Source: Desulfitobacterium dichloroeliminans LMG P-21439
GTDB lineage: Bacteria > Bacillota > Desulfitobacteriia > Desulfitobacteriales > Desulfitobacteriaceae
NCBI RefSeq assembly: GCF_000243135.2
Contig: NC_019903.1
Coordinates: 2,394,001 to 2,458,000 of the forward strand
Direction: 5' to 3'
Length of the DNA: 64,000 nt
Shown here: positions 5,857 through 10,295 of the stretch, piece by piece
How the letters are laid out: each line of letters opens with the position of its first letter
How positions within the stretch are numbered: position 1 is the first letter of the stretch
Made by a program: the position numbers and the translations under genes
The notes under the pieces: generated by a model
Database searches by the model: none
Told to the model about the DNA's origin: nothing
Seen by the model: only the letters and a program-made list of their open reading frames with translations

Positions 5857-7158
5857 TTAGTTAGATATTCTTTCGATAAGGTCTAGGAAATTAGGGAAAG
5901 AAACGGATGCAGCTTCCATGCCTTCTAAACTCAACCCTTCTTTAGATAACAGCCCCGCTACTACCCAGGCCATAGCTAAGCGGTGATCCCCATAACTGGA
6001 AGCTCGCCCGCCTTTTAGTTGGGAAATACCTTTAATCTGCAACCCATCGTGAAGCTCCTGGATATCTGCCCCTAGAGCCTCCATTCCTTGAGCCACCATT
6101 GCGATTCGATCGGTCTCTTTTACTCGAAGCTCAGCCGCATCGCGAATCATGGTCACCCCTTTAGCCAAGCTAGCCGCAACAGCGAGGATGGGAATCTCGT
6201 CAATAAGGCGGGGTATCATCGCGCCCTGGATTTCAATCCCATGAAGCTGGGCTGGTCGGACCCGCAGATTGGCACGGGGTTCACCACACTCTTCCCTTTC
6301 ATCTTCCACTTGAATATCAGCACCCATCTGCCAAAGGGCATCGAGAATACCGGTGCGCGTTTTATTCATTCCTACATTTTGGATTAGGAGCTCTCCCTGA
6401 GAGACTAGGCTTCCTAAAACTAGAAAAAAGGCAGCCGAAGAAATATCTCCAGGTATAGAAACTTCTTGTCCTAATAGTTTAGCCCCACCCTTTATCTTGG
6501 CCGTATTCCCCTCACTAATCACAGGAACTCCAAATCCCCTGAGCATCCGTTCCGTATGATCCCGGGAAAGGAATGGCTCCGTAACTGTAGTTTCCCCTTG
6601 AGCATTAAGCCCCGCCAGAAGAATGGCGGATTTCACTTGAGCTGAAGCCACAGGGGAATGAAATTGAATTCCCAGCAAAGAGCCACCTTGAATCGTTAAG
6701 GGAGCATATTTCCCATCTTGGCGGCCCAAAATCCGAGCACCCATCTCTTGTAAAGGCATGGTGACCCGTCCCATAGGTCTTGACCGTATGGAGGAATCTC
6801 CAGTTAACGTCACACTGAAGGGACAACCTGATAAAACACCTAAAATGAGGCGCATTGTAGTTCCGGAGTTTCCCACGTCTAAAACATCTTGGGGTTCACG
6901 CCAATGCTCAAACCCCTGCCCGTTGATCCAGACCTCGGTATCCTTTCGTTCCCATTCTACCCCTAGCTTTCTCAAACACTCAAGTGTACTTAAACAATCT
7001 TGTCCAGGCAAGAAATTTGTAAGGTGGGTTTCACCTTGGGCCATACCCCCAAACAAAGCCGCCCTATGGGATATGGACTTATCCCCCGGAACTTGAATTT
7101 CGCCCTGTACTTTCTTGATTGGATGAATGCGAATTCCTTTTACCCTGTTGTTATGCAT
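5857..7158 (-). CDS. aroA: 3-phosphoshikimate 1-carboxyvinyltransferase (EPSP synthase)
   Basis: AroA joins phosphoenolpyruvate and shikimate 3-phosphate to form EPSP, the sixth step of the shikimate pathway. The 433-residue protein has the usual two-domain length. Visible signatures are VPGDKSISHRA near residue 23, LDVGNSGTTMR near 92, RPMG near 127, the catalytic LIDEIPILAVAA segment near 316, RVKETDRI near 345 and YGDHRLAMA near 390. It lies 7 bp after tyrA and is the last gene before a strong terminator, so it is the promoter-distal gene of the aro operon. Confidence 0.97.
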   Translation of the reverse strand: MHNNRVKGIRIHPIKKVQGEIQVPGDKSISHRAALFGGMAQGETHLTNFLPGQDCLSTLECLRKLGVEWERKDTEVWINGQGFEHWREPQDVLDVGNSGTTMRLILGVLSGCPFSVTLTGDSSIRSRPMGRVTMPLQEMGARILGRQDGKYAPLTIQGGSLLGIQFHSPVASAQVKSAILLAGLNAQGETTVTEPFLSRDHTERMLRGFGVPVISEGNTAKIKGGAKLLGQEVSIPGDISSAAFFLVLGSLVSQGELLIQNVGMNKTRTGILDALWQMGADIQVEDEREECGEPRANLRVRPAQLHGIEIQGAMIPRLIDEIPILAVAASLAKGVTMIRDAAELRVKETDRIAMVAQGMEALGADIQELHDGLQIKGISQLKGGRASSYGDHRLAMAWVVAGLLSKEGLSLEGMEAASVSFPNFLDLIERISN

Positions 7159-7165
7159 CGTGTTC

Positions 7166-8059
7166 TTACCTCCGGTTTAACACTCGACCTCGGGCCCCTT
7201 GAGCTCTCTCAAATACGCGGATGATCTCCTCACCATTAGAATGTTCTATAACGCCTCGGATTTCCTTAAGTTTTTCCTCCCAGATATCTAAAGAGTAAAG
7301 GATGGCAGAAGCATTGCGGAGGAGGATTTCTCTCCACATCTCAGGAGAACTATCCACAAGGCGAGTGATTTCTCTAAAGCTACGACCTGCTAGTTCGAGA
7401 GGTTTTCCTTCAGGAAAACCTTCAGAAGCAGCTAAGGCCAAAGCAAGGGACAACAAATGGGGCACATGACTGACGAGTGCAACTTCGTGGTCGTGTTCTT
7501 CATACTCGCGAAAAATAACCCTTGCCCCAAGGCTCTGAACTAAGCTTGAAAATTGATTAACTAATTCTTGCGGACAGTCCTGGTGAGGAGTAAGCACATA
7601 AGGATAACCATTGAATAGGTCCGGACTAGAATATCTAAATCCGCGCTGTTCCGATCCTGCCATAGGATGTCCACCAATAAAGTAAACTGACTCTAGGTTC
7701 TCTGTTGCCTGACAGATTTCTCTTTTTATGCTTCCTACATCCGTTATGAGTGAACCTGCAGGGATTCGTCCCCTAATCTCTGTAACCGTACCTGCTAAAA
7801 GGGTGATGGGGGTAGCTAGTATGATTAAATCCACATCCAAGTTTTCTGGCAGTGATGGCCATCCCTCAAGGATCCACTCTCGAGATTTTGCCGCCTCCAA
7901 ACTTTCTCCGTCACATTCGACAGCGCTAACAGACCATCCTTTTCCTGTCAAGGCTCCAGCCCACGATCCTCCGATCAATCCAAGGCCGATGATACAAGCC
8001 CGCGGCTTTCTTTCTCCTGTCCATCCTTTGGACAGAACAGGTTTTTGCATCTTCTCCAT
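7166..8059 (-). CDS. tyrA: prephenate dehydrogenase
   Basis: TyrA oxidatively decarboxylates prephenate to 4-hydroxyphenylpyruvate with NAD(P)+, the committed step to tyrosine. A Rossmann dinucleotide-binding motif (GLGLIGGSWAGAL) lies near residue 25. It is followed by ITDVGSIKREI near 105 and the conserved substrate-site segment FIGGHPMAGSE near 128. There is no ACT domain at the C-terminus, unlike the B. subtilis enzyme, so direct tyrosine feedback through that domain is not expected. It lies 2 bp after aroF and 7 bp before aroA, indicating tight cotranscription and probably translational coupling. Confidence 0.95.
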   Translation of the reverse strand: MEKMQKPVLSKGWTGERKPRACIIGLGLIGGSWAGALTGKGWSVSAVECDGESLEAAKSREWILEGWPSLPENLDVDLIILATPITLLAGTVTEIRGRIPAGSLITDVGSIKREICQATENLESVYFIGGHPMAGSEQRGFRYSSPDLFNGYPYVLTPHQDCPQELVNQFSSLVQSLGARVIFREYEEHDHEVALVSHVPHLLSLALALAASEGFPEGKPLELAGRSFREITRLVDSSPEMWREILLRNASAILYSLDIWEEKLKEIRGVIEHSNGEEIIRVFERAQGARGRVLNRR

Positions 8060-8061
8060 GA

Positions 8062-9087
8062 CTATCGAGCTCCCTTTACCGGTCTTCCCAGTGCATCAGC
8101 TAATTTCTTCAATTCGTCCATCATCGTGGTAAAATTGGGGACGGTTAAGGATTGCTTGCCATCTGATACAGCTTTTTCCGGGTTAGGATGTACCTCAACA
8201 ATGATTCCGTCAGCTCCGGCTGCGACCGCTGCTTTCGCCATAGAAGGAACCAAATTCCAGCGGCCGGTCCCATGACTAGGATCAACGATGACCGGAAGGT
8301 GTGATAATGAATGAAGAGCGGGAACCATACTTAAATCCAATGTATTCCTCGTATAGTTCTCAAAGGTGCGAATCCCTCGTTCACAGAACATGACTTGGTA
8401 GTTGCCGCCATCCATGATGTATTCTGCAGCCATCATCCATTCTTCTAGAGTCGCTGAGGGTCCTCGTTTTAAGAGTACAGGCCTATTGGTTTTAGCTACT
8501 TCCTTGAGCAGGATAAAATTCTGCATATTACGGGCCCCGATTTGGAGGATATCCGTATAGTGGGCAACGAGTTCAACATCGCGCACGTCCACCACTTCCG
8601 TTACAACTAGAAGTCCCGTTTCTTCCCTTGCCTCCGCCAGAAGCTTTAACCCTTCTTCCTCTAATCCCTGAAAAGCATAGGGTGAAGTGCGGGGTTTGAA
8701 AGCTCCTCCTCTTAGGAAGGTTGCCCCAGCTTCTTTCACAGCATGGGCAGTCTCAAGAATTTGGGATCGGCTTTCTACACTGCAAGGCCCCGCCATAACA
8801 TGGATCTCTTCTCCGCCAATTTCATGCTCTCCAATTTTGATAATGGTGTTTTCACTTTGAAATTCACGGCTGACTAGCTTATAAGGCGCAAGGATTGGAA
8901 CTACTTTCTCTACCCAAGGTATAGCTTCTAGATCCAGAGCTTCTAATCGTGAACGATCACCAATAGCACCAACGATAATCTTCTCTACTCCTTGTGAAAG
9001 ATGGACCTTAAACCCCTCTTCATTTAAACGTTCATTAATTTTCTGAACTTGTGCTTCACTCGTTCCGCGTTTTAAGACAATAATCAT
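8062..9087 (-). CDS. aroF: 3-deoxy-7-phosphoheptulonate synthase, type I-beta with N-terminal regulatory domain
   Basis: DAHP synthase condenses PEP and erythrose 4-phosphate in the first step of the shikimate pathway. I start it at ATG 9087 (MIIVLKRGTSEAQ), which has an AGGGAG site 8 bp upstream, giving 341 residues. Residues 1-70 form a ferredoxin-like domain of the kind that mediates feedback inhibition in Thermotoga DAHP synthase. The catalytic barrel follows, with MAGPCSVES, RGGAFKPRTSPY, LLKRGPSATLEEW, FCERGIRTFE and VDPSHGTGRW motifs; the cysteine, histidine and acidic metal ligands are present. It lies 103 bp after aroH and 2 bp before tyrA. Confidence 0.95.
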   Translation of the reverse strand: MIIVLKRGTSEAQVQKINERLNEEGFKVHLSQGVEKIIVGAIGDRSRLEALDLEAIPWVEKVVPILAPYKLVSREFQSENTIIKIGEHEIGGEEIHVMAGPCSVESRSQILETAHAVKEAGATFLRGGAFKPRTSPYAFQGLEEEGLKLLAEAREETGLLVVTEVVDVRDVELVAHYTDILQIGARNMQNFILLKEVAKTNRPVLLKRGPSATLEEWMMAAEYIMDGGNYQVMFCERGIRTFENYTRNTLDLSMVPALHSLSHLPVIVDPSHGTGRWNLVPSMAKAAVAAGADGIIVEVHPNPEKAVSDGKQSLTVPNFTTMMDELKKLADALGRPVKGAR

Positions 9088-9190
9088 CAATTCCACTCCC
9101 TCTACCATCCTACATTCTTTTTCGTATCATTCATCCAGAAAACGAGCAGTTCTACCATACTACACCGCAATTTGTCTAACATACTTATCT

Positions 9191-9571
9191 TTAATCCACA
9201 TCTGCATTCTCCATCAGATCTCTACGCAGATTTACTGCATCCCTTAGATAAACAGGTTGGATTTCCTCCTGTGACAAAGGGCTTTCTACATGAAGCAAAA
9301 CGCGGATACATCGGGGTAGAGACCCTGGAACAGGGATTTCATTGAGGCAAAGCATCGGGACGCGATCCCAGCCCAGCTGACGAGCGAAAGCTGCAGGAAA
9401 TGCAGCATCTAAATCCTTTGTTAATGTGAAAATCGCACTAACAATATCCGCTGGGGCTAATGAATTCCGCCTTACTATTTCCTCTAGGAGCTCATGAGTT
9501 GCTTGACGTATTTGTTCTGCATCATTTTCTTGTATCGTTATTGCGCCACGTATACCACGCATACCGGCCAT
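9191..9571 (-). CDS. aroH: chorismate mutase, AroH type
   Basis: This enzyme rearranges chorismate to prephenate at the branch to phenylalanine and tyrosine. The 126-residue protein belongs to the trimeric AroH class known from B. subtilis. It opens with MRGIRGAITI and carries the active-site segments FTLTKDLDAAFPA and LCLNEIPVPGSLPRCIRVL, containing catalytic arginine, aspartate and cysteine positions of the family. An upstream in-frame ATG at 9580 lies too close to the AAAGGAG ribosome binding site. The ATG at 9571 has better spacing, and a third ATG at 9562 matches the family start. It lies about 15 bp after the hutP-like gene. Confidence 0.94.
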   Translation of the reverse strand: MAGMRGIRGAITIQENDAEQIRQATHELLEEIVRRNSLAPADIVSAIFTLTKDLDAAFPAAFARQLGWDRVPMLCLNEIPVPGSLPRCIRVLLHVESPLSQEEIQPVYLRDAVNLRRDLMENADVD

Positions 9572-9586
9572 ATTAATCATTCTCCT

Positions 9587-10033
9587 TTAAGCATTGGTTT
9601 CTCCGGGGACAGCTCTGTGCCCAAGTCCCACTGCTACCTCATCGAGATGCAATAGTCCTACTCCAAAGAAGACTGCTACCGATAGGTGTTCGTCTCTTCG
9701 AGCAATTCCAATTTTTCCGCCGATATTGAGACCCATGGCTTTCGGCATAATCTGACTTAGTGCTTCCCGAGTTGCGCCGGCTACAGCCCCTTCGTCCCCA
9801 TGAGTTTCTTTAATGACTCCTTCTCTTTTTGCAGAGACAATGGCTCTTTCTACGATTTTCTTAATAGCGGTAAGATATTCGCCACCATAATCCACTGCTA
9901 CTGTATGGATTCCATGCCGGCCGAATCCTTCCTTTAAGTGAGCTTCTTCTTCCCGGCTTTCTGTCATGGCCATGCGCAAAGCCGCCATAGCAATTTTCTT
10001 ACTCTCAGCTACCACTCTATTCATTCCTTTCAC
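9587..10033 (-). CDS. HutP family RNA-binding regulator (first gene of the aro operon)
   Basis: This 148-residue protein resembles HutP, the hexameric RNA-binding antiterminator of the B. subtilis histidine-utilisation operon. It matches in length and in the C-terminal beta segments (GKIGIARRDEHLSVAVFFGVG and HLDEVAVGLGHRAV). When aligned with B. subtilis HutP as I recall it, the positions of the three metal-coordinating histidines (73, 77 and 138) are occupied by Gly82, Gly86 and Leu130, so the L-histidine/Mg site appears to be lost. It begins at a GTG with an AGGGG site upstream and ends 15 bp before aroH. A leader with an intrinsic terminator and many UAG triplets precedes it. I infer that it controls this aromatic biosynthesis operon, perhaps in response to a ligand other than histidine. 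Confidence 0.8.
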   Translation of the reverse strand: MKGMNRVVAESKKIAMAALRMAMTESREEEAHLKEGFGRHGIHTVAVDYGGEYLTAIKKIVERAIVSAKREGVIKETHGDEGAVAGATREALSQIMPKAMGLNIGGKIGIARRDEHLSVAVFFGVGLLHLDEVAVGLGHRAVPGETNA

Positions 10034-10120
10034 AAAGGGGTCCCCTTGATTATCTTAACCCAACCTTAATAGTACTACACTAAGTGATTTCAGACATAGT
10101 ACATTCTCTAAAAAAGATAA

Positions 10121-10160
10121 TAAAAAAGACACCTACGGTGTCTAATCTCTAATTCACCGT
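10121..10160 (-). promoter_or_regulatory. leader terminator with overlapping antiterminator (aro operon attenuator)
   Basis: On the minus strand, arms AGACACC and GGTGTCT (10143-10127, loop GTA) are followed by six T residues, a compact intrinsic terminator placed between the promoter and the hutP-like gene. Just upstream, ACGGTG (10160-10155) can pair with CACCGT (10140-10135). That uses bases from the terminator stem and would prevent it forming. The loop of this antiterminator contains two UAG triplets spaced by four bases, and further UAGs occur throughout the leader. Confidence 0.65.
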
Positions 10161-10266
10161 CCTACCATCCTTCCTCTATGAAATTAAGGGACAAAAACAT
10201 CGAAGTGCCCAACCGTCCTACACTATGTATGCTCTACATAGAATATCTATCAAGATATTAAATTAT

Positions 10267-10295
10267 ATTATATGATGTATCAGATCAATTTTCAA
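10267..10295 (-). promoter_or_regulatory. sigma-A promoter of the hutP-aro operon
   Basis: TTGAAA and TATAAT hexamers separated by exactly 17 bp on the minus strand. Transcription should begin near 10260, giving a leader of about 227 nt before the hutP-like start codon. Confidence 0.8.

Follow-up and report, generated by a model that had tools for sequence, protein, structure and literature searches.

HutP has until now been known from histidine breakdown, and the sole HutP studied is, to our knowledge, an antiterminator. What does a HutP-family protein regulate when it heads an aromatic amino acid operon and is linked to aroH, not hutH, and through which RNA signal? The locus lies in a 64,000 nt stretch of Desulfitobacterium dichloroeliminans DNA (the window), which is part of a single 3.62-Mb contig. 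A sequence-only reading had proposed a self-controlled antitermination circuit for aromatic amino acid synthesis, in which the protein binds spaced UAG triplets in its own leader.

The operon and its leader

Domain matches confirm the gene order hutP-aroH-aroF-tyrA-aroA, with the four enzyme genes close behind hutP and all on the same strand:

9587..10033 (-): aro-HutP, HutP-family predicted RNA-binding regulator of an aroH-linked clade, 148 aa (PF09021, fold match, clade)
9191..9580 (-): aroH, chorismate mutase (CM_1; domain match)
8062..9108 (-): aroF, DAHP synthase (domain match)
7166..8059 (-): tyrA, prephenate dehydrogenase (domain match)
5857..7158 (-): aroA, EPSP synthase (domain match)

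The leader upstream of hutP contains the following elements:

10295-10267 (-): promoter of the operon, TTGAAA-N17-TATAAT (consensus scan, 11 of 12 consensus positions; kept in the genus alignment)
10213..10220 (-): cluster I repeat unit TAGGACGG, with a TAG at 10225 ahead of it (unit from k-mer enrichment in hutP leaders)
10157..10172 (-): cluster II, tandem AAGGATGG + TAGGACGG with an 8-nt period, the putative aro-HutP binding array
10155..10160 (-): antiterminator 5′ strand ACGGTG, overlapping the last repeat unit
10135..10140 (-): antiterminator 3′ strand CACCGT, overlapping the terminator 5′ arm and loop
10121..10143 (-): intrinsic terminator AGACACC-GTA-GGTGTCT followed by a T tract (stem 10143-10127, T tract to about 10121)

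The promoter, the intrinsic terminator and the overlapping alternative pairing (an exact match of ACGGTG at 10160-10155 with CACCGT at 10140-10135) are as the sequence-only reading had placed them. Its nine UAG triplets before the end of the terminator stem are also exact (nine TAG within 10262-10121), as is its twice-occurring 10-mer GTAGGACGGT (10221-10212 and 10165-10156). Dinucleotide shuffles of the window leader give P = 0.0002 for the tandem AGNAYGGNAGNAYGG, compared with 0.019 for the nine TAG and 0.016 for the 10-mer repeat.

In a genus alignment, all four genomes retain cluster II and the terminator; cluster I is kept with small shifts, and the sequence in between drifts. In particular, the YAGGAYGG units and the terminator are conserved among congeners; the terminator GACACCGTAGGTGTC is identical in G386 and G346, and the G400 loop is one base longer. 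The two UAGs four bases apart (10151/10144), to which the earlier reading had drawn attention, are present in the window but missing from two of three congeners (G386 and G400), and carry little weight. The alignment of hutP leaders that it had proposed as a check retains the terminator and the YAGGAYGG units, but not the UAG-N4-UAG spacing. UAG triplets were accordingly rejected as the signal, being weak over the dinucleotide background and not spaced alike in every congener. The minimum free energy of the whole window leader is unremarkable (z = -1.0). A known RNA family was likewise rejected as the identity of the element, as an Rfam search gave no match in the window leader or at the arrays of 20 target loci.

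A tandem repeat unit in hutP leaders

K-mer enrichment without a prior motif, applied to 104 nonredundant hutP upstream regions, recovered GTAGGAYGG/ACGGTAG, TATAAT and terminator words. When 50 nonredundant tandem pairs serve as anchors, the unit reads YAGNAYGG with an 8-nt period and has GG ahead of it in over 90% of cases; 52% of arrays have a third NAG in register on the downstream side and 32% have one on the upstream side. The arrays consist of one or two clusters of 2-4 NAG before an intrinsic terminator. Judged from these leaders, the conserved feature is the 8-nt tandem unit YAGNAYGG, not UAG itself; the proposed recognition signal would be these NAG arrays, not UAG generally. The NAG-NAG spacing in YAGNAYGG arrays is 5 nt, compared with 4 nt in the B. 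subtilis HutP-RNA complex. The RNA bound by B. subtilis HutP has its NAGs in two clusters of three (PMC7430163). The array in the hutP leader is very likely aro-HutP's own target.

Two side observations concern array leaders elsewhere. One locus (L204) has about five YAGNAYGG units, and no ORF of at least 90 codons was found close downstream. Further, five Desulfosporosinus hutP leaders (L080, L082, L083, L084 and L088) have CTACCA(TT) just past the terminator T tract, a sequence with the potential to form about 10 bp with cluster II (AATGGTGGGA) in a pairing that would enclose the terminator.

A HutP clade that has lost the histidine site

The window protein matches PF09021 over its full length (positions 1-128 of 128; 166 bits, cut-off 25), bearing out its assignment as a 148-aa HutP-family protein. 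Its single-chain AlphaFold2 model has a pLDDT of 91.4, and a Foldseek search of the PDB with this model gives a best E of 1.8e-8 to HutP crystal structures; all 11 matches with E <= 0.001 are HutP. The NCBIfam HutP equivalog NF002838 does not match the window protein, and it does match a hut-type Desulfosporosinus paralogue (177 bits, cut-off 155). The PF09021 family is present in 257 of 398 phylum genomes and in 44 of 46 family genomes; a plasmid search found no relative. AroH adjoins HutP at 122 of the 140 loci fetched and AroF at three others, one of the remainder lying at a contig end; the sample was drawn almost entirely by similarity to the window protein or by best family scores. Both the conservation of the leader in relatives and the adjacency of aroH to HutP in most loci fetched across the phylum are in line with the earlier reading.

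The HutP tree has three cleanly separated clades, namely aro-linked (100/97 support), hut-linked and nitrogen-linked, and Desulfosporosinus genomes have several of them together. In the aro clade, Gly82 and Gly86 occur in 43 of 43 proteins, at positions where hut-HutPs have His/His, and the third histidine (His138) is missing. The hut clade, located before hutH or hutH-like genes, keeps HALYH...HEHE, and the true hut-HutPs within the same genomes retain all three site histidines; the nitrogen clade keeps HxxxH with one exception, the copy in the D. dichloroeliminans genome (C..Y). His73, His77 and His138 of B. subtilis HutP form the metal/L-histidine site. By alignment and modelled fold, the window protein is a HutP-fold member of a clade of its own, in which all three site histidines have been lost; it is probably hexameric. 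Because this site is lost, histidine, one of the candidate ligands named previously, is an unlikely ligand of aro-HutP.

A putative aromatic amino acid regulon

The search pattern GGYAGNAYGGYAGNAYGG was derived from hutP leaders alone and run on the family and phylum genomes, so that its matches elsewhere constitute an out-of-sample test. A listed gene in the sense orientation follows within 450 nt at 70 of the 89 distinct array sites, and an antisense one at none. By gene, these are HutP (26), AroF (28), AroH (3), LivJ-type (4) and SSS (3), with one each for TyrA, PheA, AroD, AroK, TrpX-type and PaaK; references for the rarer genes were picked from array loci after inspection, and with HutP, AroF, AroH and TyrA alone, 58 of the 89 sites remain. 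The TyrA site was found with both the window reference and the locus reference. The two commonest targets of the array are aroF and hutP, at roughly equal frequency. The others comprise aroH, aroD, aroK, tyrA, pheA, a HisC-like aminotransferase, SSS symporters, paaK, and PF04392 (TrpX-type) and LivJ-type ABC transporters. The sites without a listed gene include a microsatellite (L167), coding matches, sites at contig ends or just past the distance limit (L145, L164, L212), and one before an aminotransferase (L217).

Taken by their positions, the array-associated genes form a putative aromatic amino acid regulon that includes trans targets. The array precedes many aromatic amino acid genes, which supports the predicted control circuit; the proposed self-control applies insofar as aro-HutP's own leader is very likely a target, but would not be solely autogenous, as arrays also precede other genes. 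At two further loci (L269 and L270), arrays head paaK-iorA-iorB with an aminotransferase behind it, and SSS symporter-paaK-iorA. The paaK operons behind arrays suggest that arylacetate salvage is under the same control and that the symporter has an arylacetate role.

The orientation of the sites also bears on whether the arrays are DNA operators of a transcription factor. Many arrays are located just downstream of the -10 box, as operators might be; however, the 70 gene-associated sites are all sense, the units are direct and not inverted repeats, and the arrays are coupled to terminators or Shine-Dalgarno sequences, making this explanation highly improbable.

Whether HutP itself or another RNA-binding factor (TRAP, a riboswitch fold or another protein) binds the arrays can be judged from their co-occurrence. 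Of the 56 genomes in which the strict pattern occurs, 50 encode a HutP; among the 342 others, 207 do (Fisher p = 1.6e-5). Where HutP is absent, the strict-pattern sites appear to be chance matches. The converse association is incomplete: about 200 genomes encode a HutP but lack a strict array, the leader being degenerate, reduced to a single unit or missing, and for many hutP genes no leader is apparent. These array-less genomes would fit a factor to which HutP is merely a neighbour, and TRAP too binds (G/U)AG repeats. Against this, the arrays track HutP, hutP is among the two commonest targets, no Rfam family matches, and TRAP (PF02081), found in only 6 of 46 family genomes, is absent from the D. 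dichloroeliminans genome and was rejected as the binder. Overall, another factor is quite unlikely, and we retain aro-HutP as the candidate binder.

Within the D. dichloroeliminans genome, cluster II is the sole tandem pair of its kind before an aromatic gene, and a search allowing up to 2 mismatches gave 4 matches, the same as the 4 for a control pattern, with no excess. A reversed-pattern control was not used as background because GGYAGGAYGG arrays themselves match the reversed pattern. A near-match, GGTAGGACGGTGGGATAG (G000:C1:152367-152384, L225), is located about 57 nt before thrS, behind an apparent T-box terminator; it was rejected as a site, being probably a chance match.

Leader anatomy and the sign of control

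The leaders have two anatomies. In attenuator leaders, the array is followed by a short linker and a terminator (the window leader, aroF, aroK, LivJ-type, TrpX-type and paaK); in translation-type leaders, the array abuts the Shine-Dalgarno sequence (aroD in L163 and L165, the SSS symporter in L191, and perhaps hutP in L012). Across 57 phylogenetically non-independent leaders, the array pairs better with its own terminator arm than with swapped arms (p = 0.0009), and the best pairing site for the terminator arm lies on the array in 29 of these 57 related leaders, compared with 15.9 expected. A first, smaller swap test was weak (p = 0.095 for hutP and p = 0.025 for aroF), and in several Desulfosporosinus leaders the pairing is only about 4 bp. 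Overall, the predicted array-terminator pairing has statistical support that falls short of proof.

Computation establishes the conservation of the array, its exclusively sense placement before aromatic genes, the clade, the fold and the loss of the histidine site; that aro-HutP binds this RNA, which ligand it senses and whether binding represses are inferred from these patterns. Aro-HutP would be a NAG-triplet-binding HutP-fold regulator whose pocket has switched from histidine and metal to another ligand. The aromatic regulon and the loss of the histidine site point to Phe, Tyr or Trp, or to a pathway intermediate (chorismate or prephenate, for instance), as the likeliest candidates. When the ligand is plentiful, aro-HutP would bind the tandem YAGNAYGG units in the leader. 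In attenuator leaders, the bound units would be unable to pair with the terminator 5′ arm and the terminator would form, which in the window leader would turn hutP-aroH-aroF-tyrA-aroA off; in translation-type leaders, the Shine-Dalgarno region would be hidden under the bound array. At low ligand levels, array and terminator arm would pair, resulting in transcription readthrough. It is likely that control is a TRAP-like feedback repression of this kind, where ligand-loaded aro-HutP on the arrays causes termination or a translation block. This sign is favoured over antitermination because both anatomies predict repression on binding, which also suits biosynthetic and uptake genes.

The opposite sign, as in the sequence-only reading, would have binding prevent the terminator and turn the operon on by autogenous activation, perhaps with aro-HutP ligand-free or induced by a precursor. 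B. subtilis HutP works in this way (PMC7430163), the window protein belongs to the same family, and its leader has an intrinsic terminator. Yet the arrays lie on the antiterminator 5′ strand, not on the terminator, and abut Shine-Dalgarno sequences in other genes; in addition, the targets are mostly for biosynthesis and uptake, where activation by an end product would create a positive loop. Readthrough on binding is less likely for these reasons, and we regard an antiterminator as unlikely overall.

Comparison with known systems

Aro-HutP and the hut antiterminator of B. subtilis (PDB 1WMQ, 1VEA) share the PF09021 domain, a fold (TM about 0.73), clusters of NAG triplets in an attenuator leader, and a gene position at the head of the controlled operon. 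Aro-HutP differs in belonging to its own clade, in having histidines 73, 77 and 138 replaced, in having target NAGs set in YAGNAYGG units with an 8-nt period, and in its aromatic amino acid regulon with trans targets, which it probably represses instead of antiterminating. TRAP (MtrB) of the trp operon, which binds about 11 repeats 2-3 nt apart, has an unrelated fold and the same predicted logic: the ligand-loaded protein covers NAG repeats of the antiterminator 5′ strand, leading to termination, and it can also block ribosome binding sites, as predicted for aro-HutP. T-box leaders are likewise attenuators of amino acid genes in the same kind of bacteria, but are tRNA-sensing RNA structures; the Rfam search gave no T-box match in the array leaders covered (the window leader and 20 target loci), and one T-box lies downstream of an array-controlled gene in L211.

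In the open-access literature searched (most subscription journals being outside it), we found no HutP tied to aromatic amino acids and no description of such a circuit, in keeping with the earlier reading. The HutP family and the NAG-array principle are known; the clade, the RNA unit and the regulon appear to be new, and the ligand and the sign of control probably are. If the proposal is true, one protein and one short RNA code explain aromatic pathway control in anaerobes (Desulfitobacterium, Desulfosporosinus, Pelotomaculum and relatives), and regulation of the HutP type is capable of both a ligand change and a sign reversal, which makes it a clean case for studying the re-tuning of a protein-RNA switch. 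Testable gene functions follow as well, among them an arylacetate symporter and aromatic amino acid ABC transporters. More broadly, the chances are even that HutP is the histidine-specialised branch of a larger, metabolite-gated NAG-array family, whose aro branch would sense aromatic amino acids and repress genes for synthesis, uptake and arylacetate salvage (paaK-iorAB) throughout the phylum, through both termination and translation block, with a further branch at nitrogen genes (amtB, glnB, nifH-like).

Nitrogen-linked HutP loci

A second HutP clade lies near amtB, glnB (PII), nifH-like genes or a glutamine-type ABC transporter (L232 3211-5414, in the D. dichloroeliminans genome at G000:C1 ~874 kb; L234; L246-L255). 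The D. dichloroeliminans member (L232 3211-3648) has Cys/Tyr where its relatives keep His/His. In several leaders of this clade, a terminator-like hairpin follows a conserved element, AGGCAAYGGMGCCGU, whose loop (AAYGGM, closed by a GGC/GCC stem) is similar to an ANTAR-type hexaloop.
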